37,998 nt of DNA from IMG/VR virus record IMGVR_UViG_3300043436_004263, positions 1 to 37,998 of that record; one strand, 5' to 3'. A program made the translations under genes and the position numbers. The notes beneath the pieces are model-generated. The model was not told the origin of the DNA. It searched no databases and was given only the letters and a program-made list of their open reading frames with translations. This document shows, one piece after another, positions 2,498 through 33,726 of the stretch; position 1 is the first letter of the stretch; each line of letters opens with the position of its first letter. The DNA is from a virus.

Positions 2498-2606
2498 GAT
2501 CTTCGTAGAAACGCTTATTGGCTCATTGGCAATAATTCTTATAGGGATTGGAATATCGTTAATCCTGGCGCATCTATTTTACAATTGGCTTGAAAATAAA
2601 GATTGA
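2490..2606 (+). CDS. Single-pass small membrane protein (38 aa)
   Basis: A very short open frame translating to MNKIFVETLIGSLAIILIGI and continuing to YNWLENKD. Residues about 8-30 form one strongly hydrophobic segment flanked by polar ends, which is a clear transmembrane helix. The start overlaps the previous gene (ATGA-type overlap) and the stop is 23 bases before the next start, so it fits the operon spacing. The role is unknown; small membrane proteins in early blocks can affect host membranes or exclude other phages. Confidence 0.5.
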   Translation: MNKIFVETLIGSLAIILIGIGISLILAHLFYNWLENKD

Positions 2607-2629
2607 TGTAAAAAAAGAAATAGAAAATT

Positions 2630-2854
2630 ATGGCTGAATCAGCAATTAAATATTTAAAAAGATTAGTATTCCCATATCTTACTCATGAAGAAAAAATGTT
2701 TACTGGTAAATTCTTTTATGAAGCAGAGATGATGGAGAAGGAGCAGATAAAAGAGGCTTACATATTACCATTATCATCAGAATATTGGTTTAAAGACGAA
2801 GATTTTTTTCAAACAGAAGCAGAAAAATACTACAACGAAACCTATGGAAAATAA
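2630..2854 (+). CDS. Hypothetical acidic protein (74 aa)
   Basis: A short soluble protein, MAESAIKYLKRLVFPYLTHE, with many aromatic and acidic residues, predicted mostly helical. It overlaps the following gene by 11 bases. Codons 59-60 are TTT TTT inside a seven-T run. This is the same heptamer as proposed below for the tail chaperone, but here the next gene is not in the -1 frame, so no frameshift is proposed. Function not recognised. Confidence 0.6.
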   Translation: MAESAIKYLKRLVFPYLTHEEKMFTGKFFYEAEMMEKEQIKEAYILPLSSEYWFKDEDFFQTEAEKYYNETYGK

Positions 2855-3233
2855 TTTATTATTTATACCATGTGCAATTGAATCAATTAGCACTAGAAAA
2901 GATAAAACATTAAAAATAATAATTGGAACACAAGAATTAAATCCATTATCAATGTCTAATCTATTAGATCAATGGTCAAATGGTTATGGAATAATGGCAT
3001 TTAAAAAAGAAGAATTTAATATCCAAGAAAAAGAATTATTAGAATCAATTAAAATAAATCAAGAAGAATTAAATACTAAAACACCATCACAAAGATTAAG
3101 ATCTGTATTATATATCTTATATACAAAAAATAATGAAGGTTATAATGATTTCACTAATTACTATCTATCTAAATTAGAAAAGATAATACAATCAATCACA
3201 AAAAAAATAGATCAATACGACAATAATTTTTAA
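2844..3233 (+). CDS. Hypothetical protein (129 aa)
   Basis: Starts MENNLLFIPCAIESISTRKD. The N-terminal half contains short predicted strands (TLKIIIGTQELNPLSMSNLL). The second half is helical and ends in LEKIIQSITKKIDQYDNNF. The pattern resembles small phage proteins of the replication/recombination region that act on single-stranded DNA, but I see no diagnostic motif. It is the last gene of the early block; the -7 box of the packaging operon follows 13 bases after its stop. Confidence 0.6.
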   Translation: MENNLLFIPCAIESISTRKDKTLKIIIGTQELNPLSMSNLLDQWSNGYGIMAFKKEEFNIQEKELLESIKINQEELNTKTPSQRLRSVLYILYTKNNEGYNDFTNYYLSKLEKIIQSITKKIDQYDNNF

Positions 3234-3246
3234 TTAATTATTTTTT

Positions 3247-3254
3247 TAGTTTTG
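3247..3254 (+). promoter_or_regulatory. Bacteroidota-type -7 promoter element of the packaging operon
   Basis: TAGTTTTG fits the TAnnTTTG -7 consensus and is followed by TAA, as at four other places in this genome. The ATG of the next gene is 14 bases downstream, so the transcript would have a very short 5' leader. No clear -33 TTTG is visible at the usual distance. Confidence 0.55.
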
Positions 3255-3267
3255 TAAAAAATATTAT

Positions 3268-3429
3268 ATGCCATTAATGCAAGGTGAATCACAAGCAGTG
3301 ATAAATGCTAATATTAAAAAATTAGTAGAAGAAGGCTACACAAGATCACAAGCTTCAGCAATAGCATATAATGAAGCAAAAAAATCAAAAGATAAAAGAT
3401 TAAATAAATTATATGCAAACAGGTCGTAA
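3268..3429 (+). CDS. Conserved small phage protein upstream of terminase (53 aa)
   Basis: Begins MPLMQGESQAVINANIKKL and continues with EEGYTRSQASAIAYNEAKK. It matches a widespread small phage protein pattern: PL..G.S at the start, then a NI..L...G segment, then QA.AIAY and a basic tail. These proteins are usually near packaging or head genes and have no established biochemical role. The gene follows a -7 box directly and overlaps the start of the terminase small subunit by 17 bases. It is a two-helix protein with no membrane segment. Confidence 0.75.
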   Translation: MPLMQGESQAVINANIKKLVEEGYTRSQASAIAYNEAKKSKDKRLNKLYANRS

Positions 3430-3847
3430 AACATTATATAAAAAAGAATTCGATAATATGGCATATAAATTATGCTTATTAGGATATACAGACGATGATT
3501 TAGCAGAATTCTTTGAAGTAACAAAACAAACCATAAATCATTGGAAACACAAGCACGATAGCTTTTTTGACTCGTTAATACGTGGTAAATCACATGCCGA
3601 CGCTGAAGTAGCAAATGCATTATATAATCGTGCAATTGGATTAATTGTAAAAGAAGATGCCGTAACTAGAGATGGTAATATCGTTACATTAAATAAACAA
3701 TTAGCTCCAGATGCTGCAGCGGCTAAGCATTGGTTATCTAATAGACAACCTAAATATTGGCGTAAAGAAAATGATCATAATTTAAATATTAATAATGTCG
3801 AGCCATTAGTAATTATTAGAACTGAAAAAGATAATAATAATAATTAA
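3413..3847 (+). CDS. terS: Terminase small subunit
   Basis: Recognises phage DNA and hands it to the large subunit for packaging. Residues about 20-45 (YTDDDLAEFFEVTKQTINHW) form a helix-turn-helix of the type found in many terminase small subunits. It is followed by a linker with HADAEVANALYNRAIG and then GNIVTLNKQLAPDAAAAKHW, both typical of this family (the latter resembles the PDP/AA.FWL segment). The length of 144 aa is normal. The stop overlaps the start of the large subunit (TAATG). Assignment is from motif and position. Confidence 0.85.
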   Translation: MQTGRKTLYKKEFDNMAYKLCLLGYTDDDLAEFFEVTKQTINHWKHKHDSFFDSLIRGKSHADAEVANALYNRAIGLIVKEDAVTRDGNIVTLNKQLAPDAAAAKHWLSNRQPKYWRKENDHNLNINNVEPLVIIRTEKDNNNN

Positions 3848-5124
3848 TGCAATTTAAATTAACCGCTACTCAAACAGAGGCGTACGATTTAGCTATTAAT
3901 AATAAGAAAAGAGTTATAGTATTCGGCGGCGCAATTAGAGGCGGAAAGACATATTGGCTATTATTAACTATATCATATTTATGTTTACGCTATCCAAGAT
4001 CACGATATGCGATAATTCGTAAATCATTGCCAGATTTAAAACGTACTACGTTTCCATCATTTACTTCAATATTAAATGATGGATTAATTAATTATTTAAA
4101 ATCGTGGAATAGAGATACAAATGTTGTAACGTTTATTAATGGTAGTGAATTAATATTTATGTCTGAATCTTATGATGATGATAAAGATTTAAATAGATTT
4201 AGAGGATTAGAAATTAATGGCGCTGGATTAGATGAAATAAATGAATTACAAGAAGTAACATTTTATAAGGTACAAGAAAGAATTGGTAGTTGGAATAAAG
4301 CAATTGGTAAGCCTCCAATAGTTTGCTTAGCAACATGCAATCCGGCACAAAATTGGGTAAAAGAATTAATATATAATCGATATAGAGAAAATACATTACC
4401 AGATAAATGGGAATATATTAATTCAAAAATAACTGATAATCCTTATTTAGATCCTGAATATTTAGAATCATTAAAAGAATTGCCACCTATTCAATATGCT
4501 AGATTTGTTGAAGGCGATTGGGATATTTCTGATGAAGTAGTTAATCCATTTTTATATTCATGGAATGATGATAAGAATATCGATGACTCTATTATTTTAA
4601 ATAATAATTTACCTGTATATATTTCTGTCGATTTTAATGTTAATCCATTATGTGCATTAGTGATTCAAAATATTGGAAGAGATAGTTATATCGTTGATGA
4701 AATTAAAATTGAAAAGGGTAGCATAGACGCATTCTGTGATCGCGTTATTAGTTATGGTATTCCTAATGGATTATTGCGCATCACAGGCGATGCAATGGGC
4801 AAGGGATCATCAATTCAACAAAGAGATAATTCTTCGGCTTATTCACAAATAAAAAGAATATTAAAATTAGTAGATAGCCAAATAATTATTCCAGCTAATC
4901 CGACTCATTATAATTCTAGGATAGATTGTAATAATGCTTTAAATAGATTAAAAATAAAAGTTAATTCTAAGAAATGTAAAGGATTTGTATTTGATGCAAA
5001 GCAAGTACAATGTGATGCTGATGGAAAGATAATTAAATCAAATAGAAATAATTTAGCACAACGAGCAGATTTATTAGATTGTTTTAGGTATTATATTAAT
5101 GCAATAATTAAAAGATATTTATAG
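3847..5124 (+). CDS. terL: Terminase large subunit
   Basis: The ATP-driven packaging motor and nuclease. The N-terminal ATPase has Walker A GGAIRGGKT (residues 27-35), Walker B with its catalytic Glu in GAGLDE (125-130) and a coupling motif ATCNPAQ (162-168). The C-terminal RNase H-like nuclease shows SVDFN with Asp262, then GDAMGKGS (about 315-322) and a final acidic site ADLLDCFRYY (Asp408/411). The length of 425 aa is normal. The organisation is that of headful or cos terminases alike; circular assembly with end redundancy suits headful packaging. It overlaps terS by one base. Confidence 0.95.
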   Translation: MQFKLTATQTEAYDLAINNKKRVIVFGGAIRGGKTYWLLLTISYLCLRYPRSRYAIIRKSLPDLKRTTFPSFTSILNDGLINYLKSWNRDTNVVTFINGSELIFMSESYDDDKDLNRFRGLEINGAGLDEINELQEVTFYKVQERIGSWNKAIGKPPIVCLATCNPAQNWVKELIYNRYRENTLPDKWEYINSKITDNPYLDPEYLESLKELPPIQYARFVEGDWDISDEVVNPFLYSWNDDKNIDDSIILNNNLPVYISVDFNVNPLCALVIQNIGRDSYIVDEIKIEKGSIDAFCDRVISYGIPNGLLRITGDAMGKGSSIQQRDNSSAYSQIKRILKLVDSQIIIPANPTHYNSRIDCNNALNRLKIKVNSKKCKGFVFDAKQVQCDADGKIIKSNRNNLAQRADLLDCFRYYINAIIKRYL

Positions 5125-6691: not shown

Positions 6692-9530
6692 AGCTGATGT
6701 AACATCATTAAAGGCCGCTGTAAATGACGTAGTTAATTTAAATGATGATATTGTTACAGCGGCGCAAAAGAGCGCAAATGAGGTAGGGAAAGCATACAAA
6801 GGAGCCGCAAAATCAGTTACTGGTGCATTCGCAGTTAATGATGTAAAAAATACATTAAAAGGCCAAACAGATGCATTAAATGAAGTTGCTAATTCAACGC
6901 AAACGGCTGGCGCAAGATTAAAACAATTAAAAGCCGAATTAAATTTATTAGCAATTGAAGGTAAAATTGGATCTGATAGATTTAAAGAATTATCATTAGA
7001 GGCTGCCAAATTATCTGATACAATTGGTGATACCGCATCTAATGTAAAGAATTTAGCTTCAGATACATTTAAATTTGATGTAGCTGTAGAAGCCACACAG
7101 GCACTTGCCGGTACATTTCAGGTGGCGATTGCAGCGTCAACATTATTTGGTGCCGAGACACAAGATTTACAAAAACAATTAGTAAAAGTAAATGCCACAG
7201 TTGCATTAGCAAATGGAGTAAATCAATTAGCTGGAATATTTTTAACTGAAAATAAATTAAAAACACAAGCATTAGCTACTGCGACAAAAGTATATACATT
7301 CGTCACAACTGGAGCCACAACAGCCACAAAGCTTTGGAGAGCAGCATTAGTGACTATTGGAATTGGTGGATTAATTACTGTATTAGGATTATTATTTGAT
7401 AAAATAACCGGTACTTCAAAGGCAACTGAAGAAGCTACCGATAGTGCACGTGAATATCAAAAAGCAATTGATGATTTAAATAAATCAGTTGGTAAATCAG
7501 CAACATCTGCCGCTAATGCACAAATTGAATTATTAAATAAACAAGGAAGAATAAGTGATGAAACATCAAAGAAATTAATTGCTGCAAATAATTTAAATAC
7601 TGCAATTAGCGATAATAATACTGCCGCTAAAGAAAAAGAAACTGAAGCATTTAAAAGATTTGAAGAACAAAAAGTAAAAGATAAAGAATTATTTGGAAAA
7701 GAATTACAAGTCACAAGTGATCAATTAAATAAAGATTTAAAGGCTATTGAAGAAGAAAGAGTAAATAATGAAAAAGCATTAAATTCTAAATTACAATTAG
7801 ATATTATAGCCATTAATGAAGACGCGGCAAATAAGCGCAAAGTTGCCGCTGAAAAAGCTATTGAAGAAACAAATAAATTATCTATTGAAAGATTAAAAAT
7901 AATTCAACAAGGATTAAAGAGAGAAGAAATTATATTAGGAATAAATGAAGAATTAAAGATTAAACAAATAAAGAATAATGCTGATATAGAAAAACAAGAA
8001 GCTAGGAATTCAATTAAAAATGCTGAATTATTAAATGCTACATTATTACGAATTGAAGCAGAAAAGAATTTAGAAATTGAAAATATAAAATTTGAATTTG
8101 CTAAGAAAGAAGCAGATAATGAAATAAAGAAATTAGAAATACTATCAACGCTAAAAAGATCAACATTAAATGATGAATTAAAATTAATTGAATTTAGACG
8201 TGTATCACTAGAGAATCAAGCAAAGCAAGAAATTAAAAATAAAGAAGAATTAGAATTAAGAATAACTGAAATAGAAGCTAATGCATTAAATGAAAGAAAT
8301 GAAGCACAATTTAATTACAATAAACAAATATCGGAATTGGCCGCAGCTCAATTAGAATTAAATAAAGCGCTTGGTGATCAAACATTGTCTAATGAGATTG
8401 GAATAATTAATCAGAAATTCTTATTAAGAGAACAAGAATTAAGAAATAATGCGGCTAATACTATTGAAGCTCAAAAGAAATTAAATGTAGATTTATTATT
8501 ATTAGAACAAGAAAGAATAGATGAGATTAAAAAAATAAAAAATCAATCTATTATTGATGAAATAGAATTAGAGAATACAAAGCTAAAAACGTTGATAGAG
8601 ATAGGAAATGGATCAATTAGTGATAGAATTAAATTAATTCAAAATGAAGGTGAAATAAGGAAAAAAGAAGTTGACAATGAAATAAAAGATGCAAAAAGAA
8701 AAGCCGCTGAAATTGAATTAATTAATGCAGAAACAGAAAGTGCAATTAGAAAAGAAAGAAAAAATAGTTTAGATGATGGAATTGCAAAAGCTGAAGAATA
8801 TATTGGTGAAATACAAAATGTATTTGGCGCATTAAATGATTTATCAAAAGCCAATACTGAAGCCAGGATTAGCGATATTGAAACACAAAGCTCTGCTGAA
8901 TTAGATGCAATTAATAGGGCACAAATAAGTGAACAAGAAAAGAATAAACAAAAGCAAGCATTAGAATTAAGGACAAATAGAGCAATTACAATTGAAAAAA
9001 TTAAACAAGCAAAACGTGATAAAGCAATTGCGATATTTAATGCCGCAATTGATGTAGCAATGGCGATATTAAAAACTGGTGCTCAATTAGGTTATCCAGC
9101 TGCCATTCCATTTCAAATTGCTGCTGGAGTTGTTGGTGCCACGCAAATAGCGGCAATTAATGCACAACAATTACCTAAATTTAAAAAAGGTGGATTAATT
9201 AAAGGGCGTTTACATAGTGAAGGTGGAACGATAATTGAAGCCGAAAGAGGTGAATATATAGTTAATAGATCTCAATCTTCATTATATAAAAACGAATTAG
9301 AAGCAATTAATTCATCATCATCAGCTTTTAAGAAATTAATTAATGAAAAATATATTCGACCAGCATTAATTGATTTTGCGTTAAATTCTAAGAATTCAAA
9401 TCCAATAATTAAAGCAACTCTTAATTCTAAATCAATGGAAAAAGAGATTAAATCTTTAAATAAGAAAATGAATAATAAGAATATTATAATTAACATTAAC
9501 CAGAACGATTCTAGATACACATGGCAATAG
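6639..9530 (+). CDS. Tape measure protein
   Basis: Sets tail length and is threaded through the tail tube. The 963 aa are dominated by long coiled coils (residues about 270-750, runs of ENxKxE-type helices), with a hydrophobic segment around 225-255 (LWRAALVTIGIGGLITVLGL) and a second Ala/Gly-rich one near 840-880. The C-terminal motif KFKKGGLIKGRLHSEGGTII then EAERGEYIVN is typical of Bacteroidota phage tape measures. No in-frame ATG exists near the start; the probable starts are TTG 6639 or GTG 6666, both inside the end of the preceding frame. Confidence 0.9.
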   Translation: MNTNLNLIKVSKVLIQYEADVTSLKAAVNDVVNLNDDIVTAAQKSANEVGKAYKGAAKSVTGAFAVNDVKNTLKGQTDALNEVANSTQTAGARLKQLKAELNLLAIEGKIGSDRFKELSLEAAKLSDTIGDTASNVKNLASDTFKFDVAVEATQALAGTFQVAIAASTLFGAETQDLQKQLVKVNATVALANGVNQLAGIFLTENKLKTQALATATKVYTFVTTGATTATKLWRAALVTIGIGGLITVLGLLFDKITGTSKATEEATDSAREYQKAIDDLNKSVGKSATSAANAQIELLNKQGRISDETSKKLIAANNLNTAISDNNTAAKEKETEAFKRFEEQKVKDKELFGKELQVTSDQLNKDLKAIEEERVNNEKALNSKLQLDIIAINEDAANKRKVAAEKAIEETNKLSIERLKIIQQGLKREEIILGINEELKIKQIKNNADIEKQEARNSIKNAELLNATLLRIEAEKNLEIENIKFEFAKKEADNEIKKLEILSTLKRSTLNDELKLIEFRRVSLENQAKQEIKNKEELELRITEIEANALNERNEAQFNYNKQISELAAAQLELNKALGDQTLSNEIGIINQKFLLREQELRNNAANTIEAQKKLNVDLLLLEQERIDEIKKIKNQSIIDEIELENTKLKTLIEIGNGSISDRIKLIQNEGEIRKKEVDNEIKDAKRKAAEIELINAETESAIRKERKNSLDDGIAKAEEYIGEIQNVFGALNDLSKANTEARISDIETQSSAELDAINRAQISEQEKNKQKQALELRTNRAITIEKIKQAKRDKAIAIFNAAIDVAMAILKTGAQLGYPAAIPFQIAAGVVGATQIAAINAQQLPKFKKGGLIKGRLHSEGGTIIEAERGEYIVNRSQSSLYKNELEAINSSSSAFKKLINEKYIRPALIDFALNSKNSNPIIKATLNSKSMEKEIKSLNKKMNNKNIIININQNDSRYTWQ

Positions 9531-28753: not shown

Positions 28754-29413
28754 ATGACGACAACTAAATTAGCAATTCCAATTCAAGATCTTTACGCGGC
28801 AATTAATTCTAAAATTGTATTAAATGCTCAAAATGTTTTATCTAATGCACCTAAATCAATCAATGACAAATATGATTATGATTTGACTGAAAGCATTATG
28901 AGAACAATAAATGAAGCTATTAAACATGTTGAATCAGCGCGTAAGAATGTCACAATACCATTAGACGCGTATAAGAAATCTTTAATCGAAATAGAAAAAG
29001 AATCTACTATATTATTTACTGAATTTATTAGTAGTAGAAAAAAGATGCTATTAGATTATAATGAAGAATTAATTAAGAAACAAGAAGAGGCTAATAGAAA
29101 GATCAAAGAAGAAGCAGATAATATGCTAAAGCAAAGCGGGGCCGAAGCATTAGCAGATATTATGGGGCATTTTACTGATAAATTAATTAATGCAAATATT
29201 GAATTAGAAAAGCCTAAAAATATTAGAACAACTATTAAAGCAAGAATTAATGGAGATGTTGATTGGCGTACTGTTGTGGTAGTTTTATTGGCATCTAAAT
29301 TATTAGAAGAAGAAGAATTATTAAAGCAATTACCAAAAGCGATGAATATATGTAATTATACATCAATAAATGGAATTGAATTATATGAACATAAAACACA
29401 AATATTAAAATGA
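28754..29413 (+). CDS. Coiled-coil phage protein of the recombination region (219 aa)
   Basis: Residues about 45-135 are a long charged helix (INEAIKHVESARKNVTIPLD; SSRKKMLLDYNEELIKKQEE). The ArgLys...P..(A/F)..y pattern is typical of DUF1351-like phage proteins found beside SSB and nuclease genes. The C-terminal part (KARINGDVDWRTVVVVLLAS) is more compact. A DNA-recombination accessory role is inferred from family resemblance and location. It overlaps the next gene (ATGA). Confidence 0.6.
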   Translation: MTTTKLAIPIQDLYAAINSKIVLNAQNVLSNAPKSINDKYDYDLTESIMRTINEAIKHVESARKNVTIPLDAYKKSLIEIEKESTILFTEFISSRKKMLLDYNEELIKKQEEANRKIKEEADNMLKQSGAEALADIMGHFTDKLINANIELEKPKNIRTTIKARINGDVDWRTVVVVLLASKLLEEEELLKQLPKAMNICNYTSINGIELYEHKTQILK

Positions 29414-29679
29414 ATATTCTAATTGAGGCGAATGATATTGTTTACAATAGATCGCAAGAAAAAGAAAGGCAATATGGTCCATTTAAAGATAGCATGCAAA
29501 AAGCATCTAAAATAGCGTCATTAATGAGTAATAAAGATTTAACTGTTGAAGATATTTATAATTGCATAATAGCAATTAAATTATCTAGAGAATCATTTAG
29601 CCATAAAGAGGATAATTTATTAGATGCCGTTGCTTATATAGCATCATTAAATGATTATAAAAACTCACTTACGTTATGA
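29410..29679 (+). CDS. DUF6378-like small protein (89 aa)
   Basis: A helical protein with the signature RQYGPFKDSMQKASKIASLM ... LTVEDIYNCIIAIKLSRESF ... HKEDNLLDAVAYIAS. That is, an Arg..YG start, an IKlsR motif and a Dn..D..AYia motif, as in DUF6378-type phage proteins. The all-alpha pattern with conserved acidic residues recalls MazG/HisE-like nucleotide pyrophosphohydrolases, but activity is not established. It is fused by overlap to both neighbours, so it may share the modification operon. Confidence 0.65.
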   Translation: MNILIEANDIVYNRSQEKERQYGPFKDSMQKASKIASLMSNKDLTVEDIYNCIIAIKLSRESFSHKEDNLLDAVAYIASLNDYKNSLTL

Positions 29680-30569
29680 AAAAAGCAATAATTGGAATAT
29701 TAAATAATCCAGCTACTTCTGATAACTCACATTCAGCTGGAATGAATTACATAACATCTAAGTTGTTTGATGCGCCCATATTAAACGAGAATGATAATTG
29801 GAATGAATTTGATATGTTGATAATATATCATGGTCCTAATTTCAAGGAAGGTTCTTTTAATATTATTGGAGGATTTACTGAAGATGTATTTACAAGAATT
29901 AAAAAATTAATTGATTTTAAAGGACAAATAAAAACATTAGATGGTTTTCAATTAAATGATTTAATTAGAGTTAGGAAATTATATAATTATAATTATGATC
30001 TAATATTTGATCGTATTGAATTGCCTAGTAAAGATAAATTAGTAATTGGGGATTCTCATTCATTATCTGTTTGGCCTAATGATGAATTTGGAATATCTAG
30101 AAATGATGGTAAAACATTACATGGATTTCTTAAATTAAATATGGATTTAAGTCAATATAAAGAATTAATATTTTATTTCGGAAACATTGATATTAGATTT
30201 CATTTAGCTAGACAATCAAATCCAATTGAAGCAACTAAATATTTATTTAATAACTATTGTAATTATGCTTCAAAATATAATTCTTCTATAACTCAATTAT
30301 TGCCAATTGAACCGGAGTCTAGGAAAATACCATCTACCGGTTTATATAAAGGACAACCATTTTTTGGCGATATTGAATTAAGAAAAGAATTAAGAAATAT
30401 AGCCAATGATATTATGAGAAAATCTGGAATTAAATATATAGAATGGCCTGATTTTTTTCAAGATCATAATGGTGATTTGAGATTTGATATTATGGAACCT
30501 AAGCAATCAGTTCATATACGTCCTAAATATTATCAAAGAAATATTAAAAAACAATTATCATTATTCTAA
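29676..30569 (+). CDS. SGNH/GDSL-like protein of the modification cluster (297 aa)
   Basis: The segment KLVIGDSHSLSVWPN (residues about 120-134) has the GDS block I of SGNH hydrolases with the nucleophile Ser. IFYFGNIDIRFHLAR fits the GxxD/N block III area, and DFFQDHNGDLRFD with QSVHIRP near the C terminus suggests the Asp-His pair. The N-terminal 100 residues form another alpha/beta part (AIIGILNNPATSDNS; DMLIIYHGPNF). An esterase or acyl/phosphoryl transferase acting on a modified base is inferred from its neighbours. Overlaps both flanking genes. Confidence 0.55.
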   Translation: MKKAIIGILNNPATSDNSHSAGMNYITSKLFDAPILNENDNWNEFDMLIIYHGPNFKEGSFNIIGGFTEDVFTRIKKLIDFKGQIKTLDGFQLNDLIRVRKLYNYNYDLIFDRIELPSKDKLVIGDSHSLSVWPNDEFGISRNDGKTLHGFLKLNMDLSQYKELIFYFGNIDIRFHLARQSNPIEATKYLFNNYCNYASKYNSSITQLLPIEPESRKIPSTGLYKGQPFFGDIELRKELRNIANDIMRKSGIKYIEWPDFFQDHNGDLRFDIMEPKQSVHIRPKYYQRNIKKQLSLF

Positions 30570-31612
30570 TGGAATATTCTTTTGAAATAAATCAAGATTT
30601 ATTATCGTCTGTTGATGAATATCATTATAAAAGTATGATAATGGAAAAGCATATTATTGAAAAGAATTATTATAATGGAGATATTAAGACATCAATAGAC
30701 GATGATTTAATTTTTAATGTTCCGATATATGATATGGGATCAAGAAGATATGCAGCTTTTTGTTCTTTTACTGAGGCAGTTTGGAAAAAAGAAAATGATG
30801 TAAAAGGAAATGGTATTTATTTTTTAGATCATAAAATAAATAATGATTTTGATTGGTTTATGTTATTTTATTTATTTAGATTATGTGGATCTGGAATTAA
30901 TTATAAACCTAAAAAAAATGATTTATTTTCTTCATTTGAAGGCACACATGGATTTGGTAATTTTTGGATAGTAGATTTAATAATTAAAAATAAATATACA
31001 CATCAAGAATGGCTAGAAGAATTAAAGAATATTAATAAACCATTTACCGATAATAAAGGATATTTATTACCTCAATTTTCTTTTAAAGGAATTAATTCTA
31101 ATCATTTAAAAAAATATATTCTAGAATATTCAAAAGATTTGGTAGATCATCTTTTTAATTATGTTATTAAATCAAAAAGAGATATATATCAAATAACTGA
31201 TGAAGGAAATAAATGGCTAAATAATAAAGGATTTAAAAAGCAGAATTTTGTTTTAACAGCTTTTGCTGCAGATCTAGCAGAATATTATCCTCAATTTGTA
31301 AATATAAATGGATTAGTTTATGCAGGAACAAATGCTACAAAATGTATTAAAGCCATATTTCCTAAAATAAATAAAAAAATAAGTGAATTTGAATATATAA
31401 ATGAGGTTCTTCAATTCCAATCTAAGAGATATAGTTTAACTCCAATAGATTGTGAAGACTCAAGAAATTGTGATGTTGTAAGATATTTCCAAGAATACCA
31501 ATCTAAATATCATATAGAAAAAAATAATGGAGTTGTAATGAAAAATAATTCTATTCTTAAAAAAATATATGGTCAAAATAAATATTACGAATTTGCAAAA
31601 AATCTAAAATAA
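30569..31612 (+). CDS. Helical protein resembling aGPT-pyrophosphorylase / 5-hmdU DNA kinase group (347 aa)
   Basis: The family of helical phage proteins that acts on 5-hydroxymethyl pyrimidines in DNA has an N-terminal R...F...E region, a central helix-hairpin-like section with a G.ga.kgi motif, and a C-terminal D.E...C...KY block. Here FCSFTEAVWKKENDVKGNG, FAADLAEYYPQF then LVYAGTNATKCIKAIFPK, and SLTPIDCEDSRNCDVVRYFQ follow that order. The resemblance was judged by eye. Its neighbours (PLP enzyme, hydroxymethylase) support a base hypermodification role. One-base overlaps on both sides. Confidence 0.5.
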   Translation: MEYSFEINQDLLSSVDEYHYKSMIMEKHIIEKNYYNGDIKTSIDDDLIFNVPIYDMGSRRYAAFCSFTEAVWKKENDVKGNGIYFLDHKINNDFDWFMLFYLFRLCGSGINYKPKKNDLFSSFEGTHGFGNFWIVDLIIKNKYTHQEWLEELKNINKPFTDNKGYLLPQFSFKGINSNHLKKYILEYSKDLVDHLFNYVIKSKRDIYQITDEGNKWLNNKGFKKQNFVLTAFAADLAEYYPQFVNINGLVYAGTNATKCIKAIFPKINKKISEFEYINEVLQFQSKRYSLTPIDCEDSRNCDVVRYFQEYQSKYHIEKNNGVVMKNNSILKKIYGQNKYYEFAKNLK

Positions 31613-32496
31613 TGGCACATAATAATCATATAATTGATCGAATAAATAAAGATATAAATGTTTTATATCCAAATAGAAACGCATATTTAGAATTAACAAA
31701 AGATTTTAAATCTTTATTGCCAGATATATTAATCAAAGAACATGAAGGAATTAAAGTAGTTAGAGAAGATTTAATATTAAAAGGTGGAACTAAATCTAGG
31801 GCTGGAGAATTTCTAATTTCTCAAACAAAAAAGAATACTTTGGTTTACGTTGTCCCGCGTGTAGGTCATGCCGGTATTGCGATTATGGAATTAGCAAAGT
31901 TATATAATAAAGATGTTATTTTCTTTATGCCAGCGTGCAAAGAAATATCAGATCATCAATCTTATATAATTAATATGCAACCTAAAGATGTAATATTTGA
32001 AAGAATTGCAGCAATGCCTAATTTAAATCGAATTGCACATAAATATGCTATTGATAATAATTATGAATTTTTACCTTTTGGATTAAATCATCCACATACA
32101 ATTGCTGGTTTTGTAAGAACATGCGAAAATATATTAAAAAATTATGATGAACCAGAAGAATTGTGGAGCGTAGTTTCAACTGGTGTTCTTACAAGAGGAA
32201 TTCAAATAGGATTTGAAAATACAAATATGAAAGGCGTATGTGTTGCTAGAAATATGAAGCAAGGCGAATTAGGTAGAACTGAAATTATTTCTGAGCCATT
32301 ACCATTTTTAAAAGATGAGAATAAAAATAATTTACCAGAATTTAATACAGTGCCAAGCTATGATGGTAAAGCTTGGAAATATATTCCAAAAAATACTGGA
32401 AGAAATATTTGGTTTTGGAATGTAGCCGGTAATATTGAAGCACCAATTAATTTTAATAAACAACAAATAAAATCATATAAATCATGGAAAAAATAA
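31612..32496 (+). CDS. Fold-type II PLP-dependent enzyme (294 aa)
   Basis: KVVREDLILKGGTKSRAGEF (residues about 48-67) is the (K/R)REDL..gG.K.R motif of the tryptophan-synthase-beta/threonine-synthase/ACC-deaminase superfamily, with Lys61 as the PLP-binding residue. VPRVGHAGIAIMELAKLYNK is the phosphate/substrate loop in place of S.GNHG, followed by the typical VIFFMP strand. A C-terminal glycine region (VVSTGVLTRGIQIG) could bind the PLP phosphate. In this cluster it may attach or process an amino-acid-derived group on a pyrimidine. Substrate unknown. Confidence 0.75.
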   Translation: MAHNNHIIDRINKDINVLYPNRNAYLELTKDFKSLLPDILIKEHEGIKVVREDLILKGGTKSRAGEFLISQTKKNTLVYVVPRVGHAGIAIMELAKLYNKDVIFFMPACKEISDHQSYIINMQPKDVIFERIAAMPNLNRIAHKYAIDNNYEFLPFGLNHPHTIAGFVRTCENILKNYDEPEELWSVVSTGVLTRGIQIGFENTNMKGVCVARNMKQGELGRTEIISEPLPFLKDENKNNLPEFNTVPSYDGKAWKYIPKNTGRNIWFWNVAGNIEAPINFNKQQIKSYKSWKK

Positions 32497-32792
32497 ATTT
32501 AACAAATGAATTTGAACCAATTAGAAATTGGGCTCAAGAAAGAGGCATCTATGAAAAAGGTGATGCAAAAACACAATTCTTAAAATTAATAGAAGAAATT
32601 GGAGAATTATCAAAATCAATTTTAAAAAATGACGAAGAAGAATTTATTGATGCTATTGGAGATTGCGTAGTTGTATTAACAAACCTAGCTGCTTTAAATG
32701 GAAAAAATATTGAAGATTGTATTAATTCAGCTTACGAAGTTATTTCTAAAAGAAAAGGCAAAATGATTAATGGAACATTTGTAAAAGATTAA
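32484..32792 (+). CDS. MazG-like nucleotide pyrophosphohydrolase (102 aa)
   Basis: The all-alpha motif LIEEIGELSKSILKNDEEEF, then IDAIGDCVVVLTNLA, contains the metal-binding residues Glu37, Glu38, Glu41, Glu53 and Asp56/60 of MazG-type proteins, ending with K/R residues of the active site (KRKGKM). Such enzymes hydrolyse dNTPs to dNMP and pyrophosphate. Beside a dNMP hydroxymethylase, it could remove the unmodified dNTP and supply the dNMP substrate. Overlaps the PLP gene by 13 bases. Confidence 0.85.
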   Translation: MEKINLTNEFEPIRNWAQERGIYEKGDAKTQFLKLIEEIGELSKSILKNDEEEFIDAIGDCVVVLTNLAALNGKNIEDCINSAYEVISKRKGKMINGTFVKD

Positions 32793-32794
32793 TT

Positions 32795-33037
32795 ATGGAA
32801 TATATAGTTAGAGCAAAGAAAGGCCCTTATGATGGGCCTTTCTCAAAAAATATTATAACGTATTTTCTTGAGAATAATAAAGGAGAAACAATTAAATGGC
32901 ATGAAGGACCTAATAAATCTTTTAATGCTGAAATTGGTGATATAGTAACTGGCATTTTCGTCAAGGATGACAATGTTATTGACTATAGAAATTCTAATAT
33001 TCAAATTATAATTAAACAATTAAAATTAGAATTATGA
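32795..33037 (+). CDS. Hypothetical protein (80 aa)
   Basis: A small beta-rich protein (MEYIVRAKKGPYDGPFSKNI; EIGDIVTGIFVKDDNVIDYR) without a recognised family. Codons 7-17 form a perfect 10-bp hairpin in the mRNA. It lies between the MazG-like and hydroxymethylase genes and overlaps the latter (ATGA), so a role in the same pathway is possible. Confidence 0.55.
   Translation: MEYIVRAKKGPYDGPFSKNIITYFLENNKGETIKWHEGPNKSFNAEIGDIVTGIFVKDDNVIDYRNSNIQIIIKQLKLEL
32817..32843 (+). promoter_or_regulatory. Intragenic perfect hairpin in the 80-aa gene
   Basis: AGAAAGGCCC and GGGCCTTTCT pair perfectly over 10 bp around TTATGAT, 22 bases after the start codon. It is far more GC-rich than its surroundings. 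No T-run follows, so it is more likely a translation or RNA-stability element than a terminator. Confidence 0.55.
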
Positions 33038-33726
33038 TTGAATCATATCATATTAAATATCCTAATGCTGATCAAGCATTTATTCATTTATATAATTATA
33101 TTAATCATTATGGCGAATTAATTAATGGAACTAAAACTATTTTTAACATTGGATTTTACATTATAAATCCTAAAGATAATTATATTAAATGTAAAAATAG
33201 AAAATGGTCTAAACGATATGCAGATATTGAATGGGATTGGTATTTATCTGGCAATACTAATGCAATTGAATTATCTAAAATAGCAAAGATTTGGCAAAAT
33301 CATTTGGATCAAAATGGGAATGTTAATTCTAATTATGGTTATCAATGGAATCAATCAAATCAAATAGATAATGTAGTTGATGAATTAATTAGAGATAAAA
33401 ATTCTAGACGAGCATTTATAACTATTTATGATGGCAAACAAATAATTAATTCTTCAGCTACTGATTGTGGTTATTCTAAAGACACTCCATGCACTTTAAA
33501 TATAGGATTTAATATTCATGAAGATAAATTAAACATGTGCGTTTATATGCGCTCTAATGACATCTGGTATGGGTTCTGTAATGATCAGTATTGTTTTAGT
33601 AATTTGATGCAATTAATTATTTTAAAATTATCAGAAAAGGGTTTTAATTATGAATGTGGATCTTATTATCATCATGTGCACAATATGCATATTTATCTAG
33701 ATAAATTAAATAAAAACATATTTTAA
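33034..33726 (+). CDS. Thymidylate synthase-family pyrimidine hydroxymethylase (230 aa)
   Basis: The nucleophile Cys153 lies in DTPCTLNIGFN. YMRSNDIWYGFCNDQY (171-186) is the nucleotide-binding block, Arg125-Arg126 is the phosphate-binding pair, and VHNMHIY (215-221) is the C-terminal sugar-binding block. At the position of the Asn that fixes dUMP in thymidylate synthase there appears to be Asp184, as in dCMP hydroxymethylases; this points to 5-hydroxymethyl-dCMP. At 230 aa it is shorter than bacterial ThyA, as phage hydroxymethylases are. It probably supplies the modified base for the cluster. Confidence 0.8.
   Translation: MIESYHIKYPNADQAFIHLYNYINHYGELINGTKTIFNIGFYIINPKDNYIKCKNRKWSKRYADIEWDWYLSGNTNAIELSKIAKIWQNHLDQNGNVNSNYGYQWNQSNQIDNVVDELIRDKNSRRAFITIYDGKQIINSSATDCGYSKDTPCTLNIGFNIHEDKLNMCVYMRSNDIWYGFCNDQYCFSNLMQLIILKLSEKGFNYECGSYYHHVHNMHIYLDKLNKNIF

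Follow-up and report, generated by a model that had tools for sequence, protein, structure and literature searches.

A gene cluster in an uncultured tailed phage

The IMG/VR record IMGVR_UViG_3300043436_004263 holds 38 kb of uncultured tailed-phage DNA, AT-rich (27% guanine plus cytosine) and possibly incomplete, in which terminase, portal and DnaB genes were found. The whole stretch of 37,998 nucleotides was analysed and is referred to here as the window. Our subject is a compact run of seven plus-strand open reading frames (ORFs) at positions 29410-33726, where neighbours overlap by 1-13 bp or sit 2 bp apart (Table 1). An initial annotation, made from the sequence alone, had read five overlapping genes of this run as a pathway for DNA base hypermodification, encoding an SGNH-like protein, a helical protein (HEL below), a fold-type II pyridoxal phosphate (PLP) enzyme, a MazG-like pyrophosphohydrolase and a hydroxymethylase of the thymidylate synthase (TS) family. 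All five were recovered on the plus strand as start-to-stop ORFs. Two further genes of the run were absent from that list, one for a DUF6378 protein and one for a protein of 80 amino acids (aa).

Table 1. Genes of the cassette in the window, and examples of the second helical family (HEL2) in related loci
Sequence	Feature	Position	Strand	Basis
Window	DUF6378 protein, 89 aa	29410..29679	+	Pfam PF19905 1.8e-10; leads the overlapping run; 4-bp overlap with SGNH gene
Window	SGNH-fold enzyme, 297 aa	29676..30569	+	Fold model; Ser127, Asn170, His280
Window	HEL, all-helical, 347 aa	30569..31612	+	Likely in the amino acid:DNA transferase / HMUDK_hel / AGOG structural group
Window	Fold-type II PLP enzyme, 294 aa	31612..32496	+	M6 gp52 family (PHROG 7093); Schiff-base lysine K61
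Window	MazG-type pyrophosphohydrolase, 102 aa	32484..32792	+	Pfam MazG 3.5e-6; PHROG 1992 1.9e-35
Window	80-aa ORF between MazG and hydroxymethylase genes	32795..33037	+	No Pfam or PHROG family match
Window	dCMP hydroxymethylase (thymidylate synthase family), 230 aa	33034..33726	+	Cys153 nucleophile; Asp184 = T4 gp42 Asp179
L072	HEL2	3861-4835
L073	HEL2	1481-2470
L074	HEL2	1171-2157
L070	HEL2	2500-3462
L177	HEL2	7200-8309

The genes are linked across viral contigs

Relatives of HEL were found at 55 loci by single-sequence search, at least 553 were confirmed with an alignment and 138 were of a diverged type; these sets may overlap. Such relatives are abundant in uncultured viral contigs. HEL, SGNH and PLP proteins also occur together in three contigs from bacterial metagenome-assembled genomes. 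Because a tblastn search with HEL gave no match among 50,697 annotated phage records, no cultured carrier is known, and the cluster likewise had no match in phages when sought at the DNA level.

For comparison we used 180 loci, with linkage counted on the 83 that have more than 3 kb of flank on each side of HEL. An SGNH gene lies near HEL in 82/83 of these well-flanked loci, and a PLP gene does so in 82 of the 83. The order of the genes differs among loci (SGNH-HEL-PLP-TS, SGNH-HEL-HEL2-PLP, HEL-HEL2-PLP-SGNH and others), so the linkage is more than a single inherited block. Moreover, pairwise protein identities correlate in a mirror-tree comparison (r 0.66-0.84; permutation maxima ≤0.36). The linkage is far above chance and the cassette is a real functional module, which is widespread, conserved and largely unannotated.

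The hydroxymethylase is most likely of the deoxycytidine monophosphate type

The hydroxymethylase belongs to the thymidylate synthase family, as had been proposed (Pfam Thymidylat_synt, 4.4e-22), and its catalytic cysteine is kept in 84/84 relatives. A profile built from 25 relatives and compared with the Protein Data Bank (PDB) matched the T4 deoxycytidine monophosphate (dCMP) hydroxymethylase 1b49 at 1.2e-52, whereas the best thymidylate synthase reached 1.5e-29. Asp184, which aligns with the T4 residue associated with cytosine specificity, is present in all 84 relatives. Thymidylate synthases carry Asn at this position, and so do two annotated enzymes of the deoxyuridine monophosphate (dUMP) type from 5-hydroxymethyluracil (hmU) pathways, PaMx11 gp51 and PhiW-14 gp230. 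The site has already been probed, since T4 sequences with Asn there are present in the PDB, as seen in the alignments. Because T4 gp42 is the best match and Asp184 is invariant, the substrate is most likely dCMP and the base placed in DNA 5-hydroxymethylcytosine (hmC), rather than the hmU handle of the initial annotation.

The neighbouring MazG-type protein, also recognised by that annotation, scored 27.6 bits in Pfam MazG, where the cut-off is 22. It probably removes deoxycytidine triphosphate (dCTP) and supplies dCMP, in analogy to T4 gp56, which is annotated as a deoxycytidine triphosphatase (dCTPase). In the first 74 loci, which comprise the window and 73 relatives, a MazG or dCMP deaminase gene was present in 64 and a dUTPase gene in 42, and in relatives the dCMP deaminase and dUTPase genes adjoin the cassette.

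A separate observation concerns Bacteroides phage BF503P2, which has two genes annotated as deoxycytidylate hydroxymethyltransferase (L079:5109-5915 and 7989-8669); one of the two products shares 45% identity with the hydroxymethylase of the window.

The PLP enzyme has relatives in DNA-modification loci

The fold-type II assignment of the PLP enzyme held, with matches to PHROG 7093 (1e-35) and Pfam PALP (5.6e-5, with 23.1 bits where the curated cut-off is 35). K61 is found in 161/161 sequences and aligns with residue 42 of Escherichia coli CysK, the PLP lysine of that enzyme; searched against PDB sequences, the PLP profile matched cysteine synthases only weakly (0.08). The initial annotation had not recognised the set of enzymes to which this one belongs, and for the PLP component that novelty did not stand. 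The DNA of Pseudomonas phage M6 contains 5-(2-aminoethyl)deoxyuridine, according to the published account (PMC6449724). The M6 member of PHROG 7093 is gp52, which matched the window PLP family at 5.7e-9 by hhalign, and a C-terminal YDxKAW...WN block is common to the two families. These sequence comparisons place the enzyme in the M6 gp52 family, part of the known locus for 5-aminoethyldeoxyuridine. No member of the PHROG 7093 family was found when sought in PaMx11 and ViI.

Two other phages carry relatives in a different setting. Erythrobacter phage ZS04 (L075:2326-4764) fuses the PLP domain with an N6/N4-methylase-type domain, which gives the PLP family a second link to DNA modification. In Microcystis phage Mae-JY30 (L076:6387-8705) the PLP domain is fused to or beside such a domain and has neighbours annotated as ParB/sulfiredoxin. 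The two loci may represent a further DNA modification system. As a partner of the PLP enzyme we considered a serine kinase of the ParB/sulfiredoxin type, annotated near the Mae-JY30 relative, and dropped it because none was recognised in the cassette loci.

HEL resembles DNA-base glycinyltransferase and glycosylases in structure

HEL has no Pfam or PHROG match and no significant sequence match in the PDB. From its motif order, the initial annotation had placed it in the group of aGPT-pyrophosphorylases and 5-hydroxymethyldeoxyuridine (5hmdU) kinases, and had pointed to structure prediction as the way to check this. The AlphaFold2 model is helical (predicted local distance difference test (pLDDT) 88.3) and lands in the structural group formed by PUGT, aGPT-PPlase and HMUDK_hel proteins. 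In BFVD its match, at TMq 0.74 and E 1.4e-10, was a protein carrying an amino acid:DNA transferase domain; aGPT-PPlase1 and HMUDK_hel proteins were weaker matches among viral models. In the PDB, VIA aligned HEL with PUGT (8z2n) at Z 9.2 over 211 residues and with AGOG glycosylases at Z 7.0-8.4, the next fold scoring 2.9; Foldseek alone gave nothing significant there (best E 1.7, PUGT at rank 4). Since two structure libraries agree and the next fold scores far lower, it is likely, on the model, that HEL belongs to the PUGT/AGOG structural group. The structural group named from the motifs thus stood. A kinase or pyrophosphorylase role gained no support from sequence profiles, which did not link HEL to PF18723 or PF18724 but have little power here. 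Five HEL residues (E296, D297, C301, D302 and R305) are invariant in 179/179 sequences, and the motif registers of HEL and HMUDK_hel are similar by eye and in a profile comparison that was itself not significant (E 0.073).

HEL2 is a second helical family, which shares with HEL a related stretch of about 90 residues (3.7e-5). Its profile matched at 59/180 loci, two of these matches being HEL proteins that fit both profiles. One diverged group has many loci where the HEL2 gene is placed between the genes for HEL and the PLP enzyme; M6, too, encodes two helical proteins.

The SGNH protein is joined to helical domains in other phages

The SGNH-like protein of the initial annotation has no Pfam match and carries GDSH/GNID/SVH blocks. 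Its AlphaFold2 model (pLDDT 90.5) is a confident SGNH fold, which matched PDB acylhydrolases at 1.3e-5 and, by VIA, esterases at Z 10-12.8 over approximately residues 114-293. The serine, asparagine and histidine of blocks I, III and V are invariant in 165-167 SGNH sequences. Three residues before the catalytic histidine, the usual Asp is replaced by Gln or Lys, which would leave a Ser-His dyad. With the modelled fold and the Ser/Asn/His residues in place, we regard the protein as a true member of the SGNH superfamily despite the loss of this Asp.

In one relative, a single ORF of 713 aa joins SGNH and HEL (L043:4882-7020). A comparable arrangement was found in Aeromonas phage 44RR, whose unannotated ORF233c (L077:8001-10388; 795 aa) has an SGNH domain homologous over its full length (3.9e-48) and a C-terminal region that weakly matches HMUDK_hel (0.0036; 4.1e-4 in a single-genome search). 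This C-terminal part is contained in 19 Aeromonas phage records. The HEL profile did not match the 795-aa protein significantly, so a common origin of HEL and its helical part is not claimed. 44RR encodes a dCMP hydroxymethylase (8.9e-54) and no PLP gene of the PHROG 7093 family was found in it; the SGNH domain thus recurs in a dCMP-hydroxymethylase phage without that type of PLP enzyme. The fusions in L043 and 44RR suggest that the SGNH and helical domains act jointly on the base. In the literature we found no paper linking SGNH proteins to phage DNA modification.

No 5hmdU kinase was found

For the hmU pathway, PMC6449724 describes a 5hmdU DNA kinase that phosphorylates 5hmdU within DNA, after which the base is modified further. 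We built a kinase profile from five P-loop proteins of hmU-pathway loci. It found the M6 and PaMx11 controls at 1e-71 to 1e-76, and nothing in the window or in 11 relatives of 45-212 kb. This suggests, at the level of profile searches, that a 5hmdU kinase is absent from the cassette phages, whose records may be fragments.

Other genes of the loci and the window

The DUF6378 family is present in 63 of the first 74 loci. The 80-aa ORF is seldom conserved, having a tblastn match in two related loci. About 30 loci of one group (L007, L009, L014 and their kin) have GroEL-, GroES- and HSP20-like genes upstream of the SGNH gene; these were judged by eye, in 28-32 loci. Elsewhere in the window, the 213-aa product of positions 24231-24872 matches HisKA (3.3e-7) and, weakly, PAS_3, which is unusual for a phage.

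Discussion

We consider it fairly probable that the cassette directs an hmC-based, amino-acid-derived DNA hypermodification, a judgement that applies to the pathway as a whole and not to each of its steps. The reading follows from the dCMP-type hydroxymethylase, the M6-type PLP enzyme, the PUGT-like fold of HEL and the tight linkage of the genes, together with the SGNH-helical fusions, the failure to find a 5hmdU kinase and the dCMP deaminase and dUTPase neighbours. Sequence and structure comparison provide the type of the hydroxymethylase, the family of the PLP enzyme, the SGNH and HEL folds and the co-conservation; from these we infer that DNA is the substrate, that an amino acid is transferred to it and that this is decarboxylated. 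The reading as a base-hypermodification cassette, proposed by the initial annotation, is thereby supported in outline.

In the proposed pathway, the MazG-type enzyme would deplete dCTP to dCMP, which the hydroxymethylase would convert to 5-hydroxymethyl-dCMP, to be phosphorylated and incorporated as hmC. After replication HEL, which is DNA-glycosylase-like, may present the flipped hmC base; HEL and the SGNH protein would then turn the hydroxymethyl group into an activated form, probably an acyl ester, and swap in an amino acid. The model for this activation and exchange is the kinase and the amino acid:DNA transferase that do the equivalent for hmU in M6 and PaMx11. The PLP enzyme would next work on the amino acid attached to the DNA; decarboxylation is the likeliest reaction, and C5 of cytosine would be left with an aminoalkyl group. 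Because the hmU system pairs a P-loop kinase with a helical domain, and here an SGNH protein is paired with one, acylation may replace phosphorylation. An acyl leaving group on the hydroxymethyl is chemically plausible, yet activation by the SGNH protein is the weakest step of the pathway and we put it forward only tentatively. Rather doubtful is the full sequence of events in which an SGNH acyltransferase replaces the kinase to give acyl-hmC while its DNA-glycosylase-like partner keeps hold of the flipped base, an amino acid displaces the ester and the fold-type II PLP enzyme trims the product on DNA, the outcome being an undescribed amino-acid-derived cytosine.

Several points weigh against this interpretation. 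A Z of 9 for a helical protein is not by itself proof of the kinship of HEL. PF18724 (ADDT) has no match in HEL, in the contigs of eight relatives or in 20 diverse HEL/HEL2 proteins, and PF18723 (HMUDK_hel) has no Pfam match in HEL, the comparison of the two being not significant (E 0.073). These sequence-profile negatives carry little power, because PF18723-type and PF18724-type proteins miss each other too: profile comparison of HEL with the ADDT and HMUDK_hel alignments gave nothing significant, and the control, HMUDK_hel against ADDT, was likewise at 0.024. In three long relatives no hydroxymethylase was found. The records are possibly fragmentary, so that a kinase could lie elsewhere, and one unlike the 5hmdU kinase would escape the profile. 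The cassette showed no obvious radical SAM enzyme, though no systematic search for one was made, and the chemistry of M6 therefore does not transfer step for step. Finally, the decarboxylation is modelled on the role of M6 gp52: the work of Lee et al. in 2018 and later studies reportedly have this PLP enzyme decarboxylate a DNA-linked amino acid.

The alternative that survives best leaves the hmC base and changes the place of the SGNH protein, which would be a late decorator, or a de-acylating editor, of the finished base, the activation of hmC falling to HEL or to a distant host or phage kinase. Esterases and acyltransferases are the best-known SGNH proteins. In PaMx11 a gene for a putative acetyltransferase, which might act as such a decorator, follows PUGT at a distance of two genes, and loci that may be fragmentary would allow for such a kinase. 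Set against this are the fused proteins of L043, where SGNH is joined to the helical domain, and of 44RR, where it is joined to the HMUDK_hel-like region; both suggest joint action. The failure to find a 5hmdU kinase in the 12 records searched also speaks against it. Decoration of the product by the SGNH protein is unlikely on this evidence, but nearly as likely as activation by it.

A role outside DNA, with the cassette acting on free nucleotides or making a small molecule, appears improbable. It would suit the MazG, dCMP deaminase and dUTPase genes, whose products are nucleotide-pool enzymes, and the fold-type II PLP enzymes in general, which usually act on free amino acids. However, the fold of HEL is that of DNA glycosylases and of a DNA-base glycinyltransferase, and relatives of the PLP enzyme occur at DNA-modification loci, as in M6 and Pam3, or carry a fused N6/N4-methylase-type domain. 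Most improbable is an hmU pathway like that of M6 and ViI in which the dUMP hydroxymethylase has diverged, a view near to that of the initial annotation. In its favour are the PLP family shared with M6 and a HEL fold resembling an hmU-pathway enzyme, but we reject it on Asp184; the closer match to the T4 enzyme and the failure to find a 5hmdU kinase also count against it.

For the hmC-based pathway that we favour, no characterised base follows from the gene set, in keeping with the earlier suggestion that the final base may be new; it may well be. To our knowledge, the known phage modifications that place an amine or amino acid on a hydroxymethylated base (those of M6, ViI, PhiW-14 and PaMx11) are all built on thymine. 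In hundreds of contigs from uncultured, metagenomic phages, the cassette points to the same logic applied to hmC, and it also points to an SGNH enzyme that works on DNA. If this is true, a new base is predicted in many such phages, along with enzymes that place amines on cytosine C5 and a route past host restriction, and the unannotated 795-aa protein of 44RR gains a testable role.

Comparison with known systems

The closest counterpart is the locus for thymidine hypermodification of Pseudomonas phages M6 and YuA. In M6 it runs gp51 (PF18724 amino acid:DNA transferase), gp52, gp53 (presumably a radical SAM enzyme), gp54 (P-loop), gp55 (PF18723 HMUDK_hel) and gp58 (thymidylate synthase family). 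It has in common with the cassette a hydroxymethylase of the thymidylate synthase family, a PLP enzyme of the gp52 family and a helical transferase gene, gp51, beside the PLP gene. It differs in having the 5hmdU P-loop kinase gp54, the HMUDK_hel protein gp55 and gp53, whereas the window has a dCMP-type enzyme, an SGNH protein and a HEL of its own sequence family. PUGT of PaMx11 (gp46), the 5-phosphomethyldeoxyuridine (5-PmdU) glycinyltransferase and a PF18724 protein, is the best structural match of HEL in the PDB, yet the two are 8% identical and their conserved residues are different.

T4 offers the counterpart of the early steps. Its gp42 is a dCMP hydroxymethylase with the same kind of Asp179-type residue, and the MazG-type protein of the window would stand, by analogy, in the place of the dCTPase gp56. 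In contrast to T4, no glucosyltransferase was seen in the window cassette, which has HEL, SGNH and PLP proteins instead. The T4-like Aeromonas phages 44RR and 31 have the ORF233c SGNH domain with its HMUDK_hel-like C-terminal region, and 44RR adds the dCMP hydroxymethylase; 44RR differs in that no PLP gene of this family was found there and in a C-terminal region that the HEL profile does not significantly match. The cassette would thus be an M6-type pathway moved to cytosine, in which the PLP enzyme is shared, the first step is of the T4 type and two components belong to sequence families of their own.

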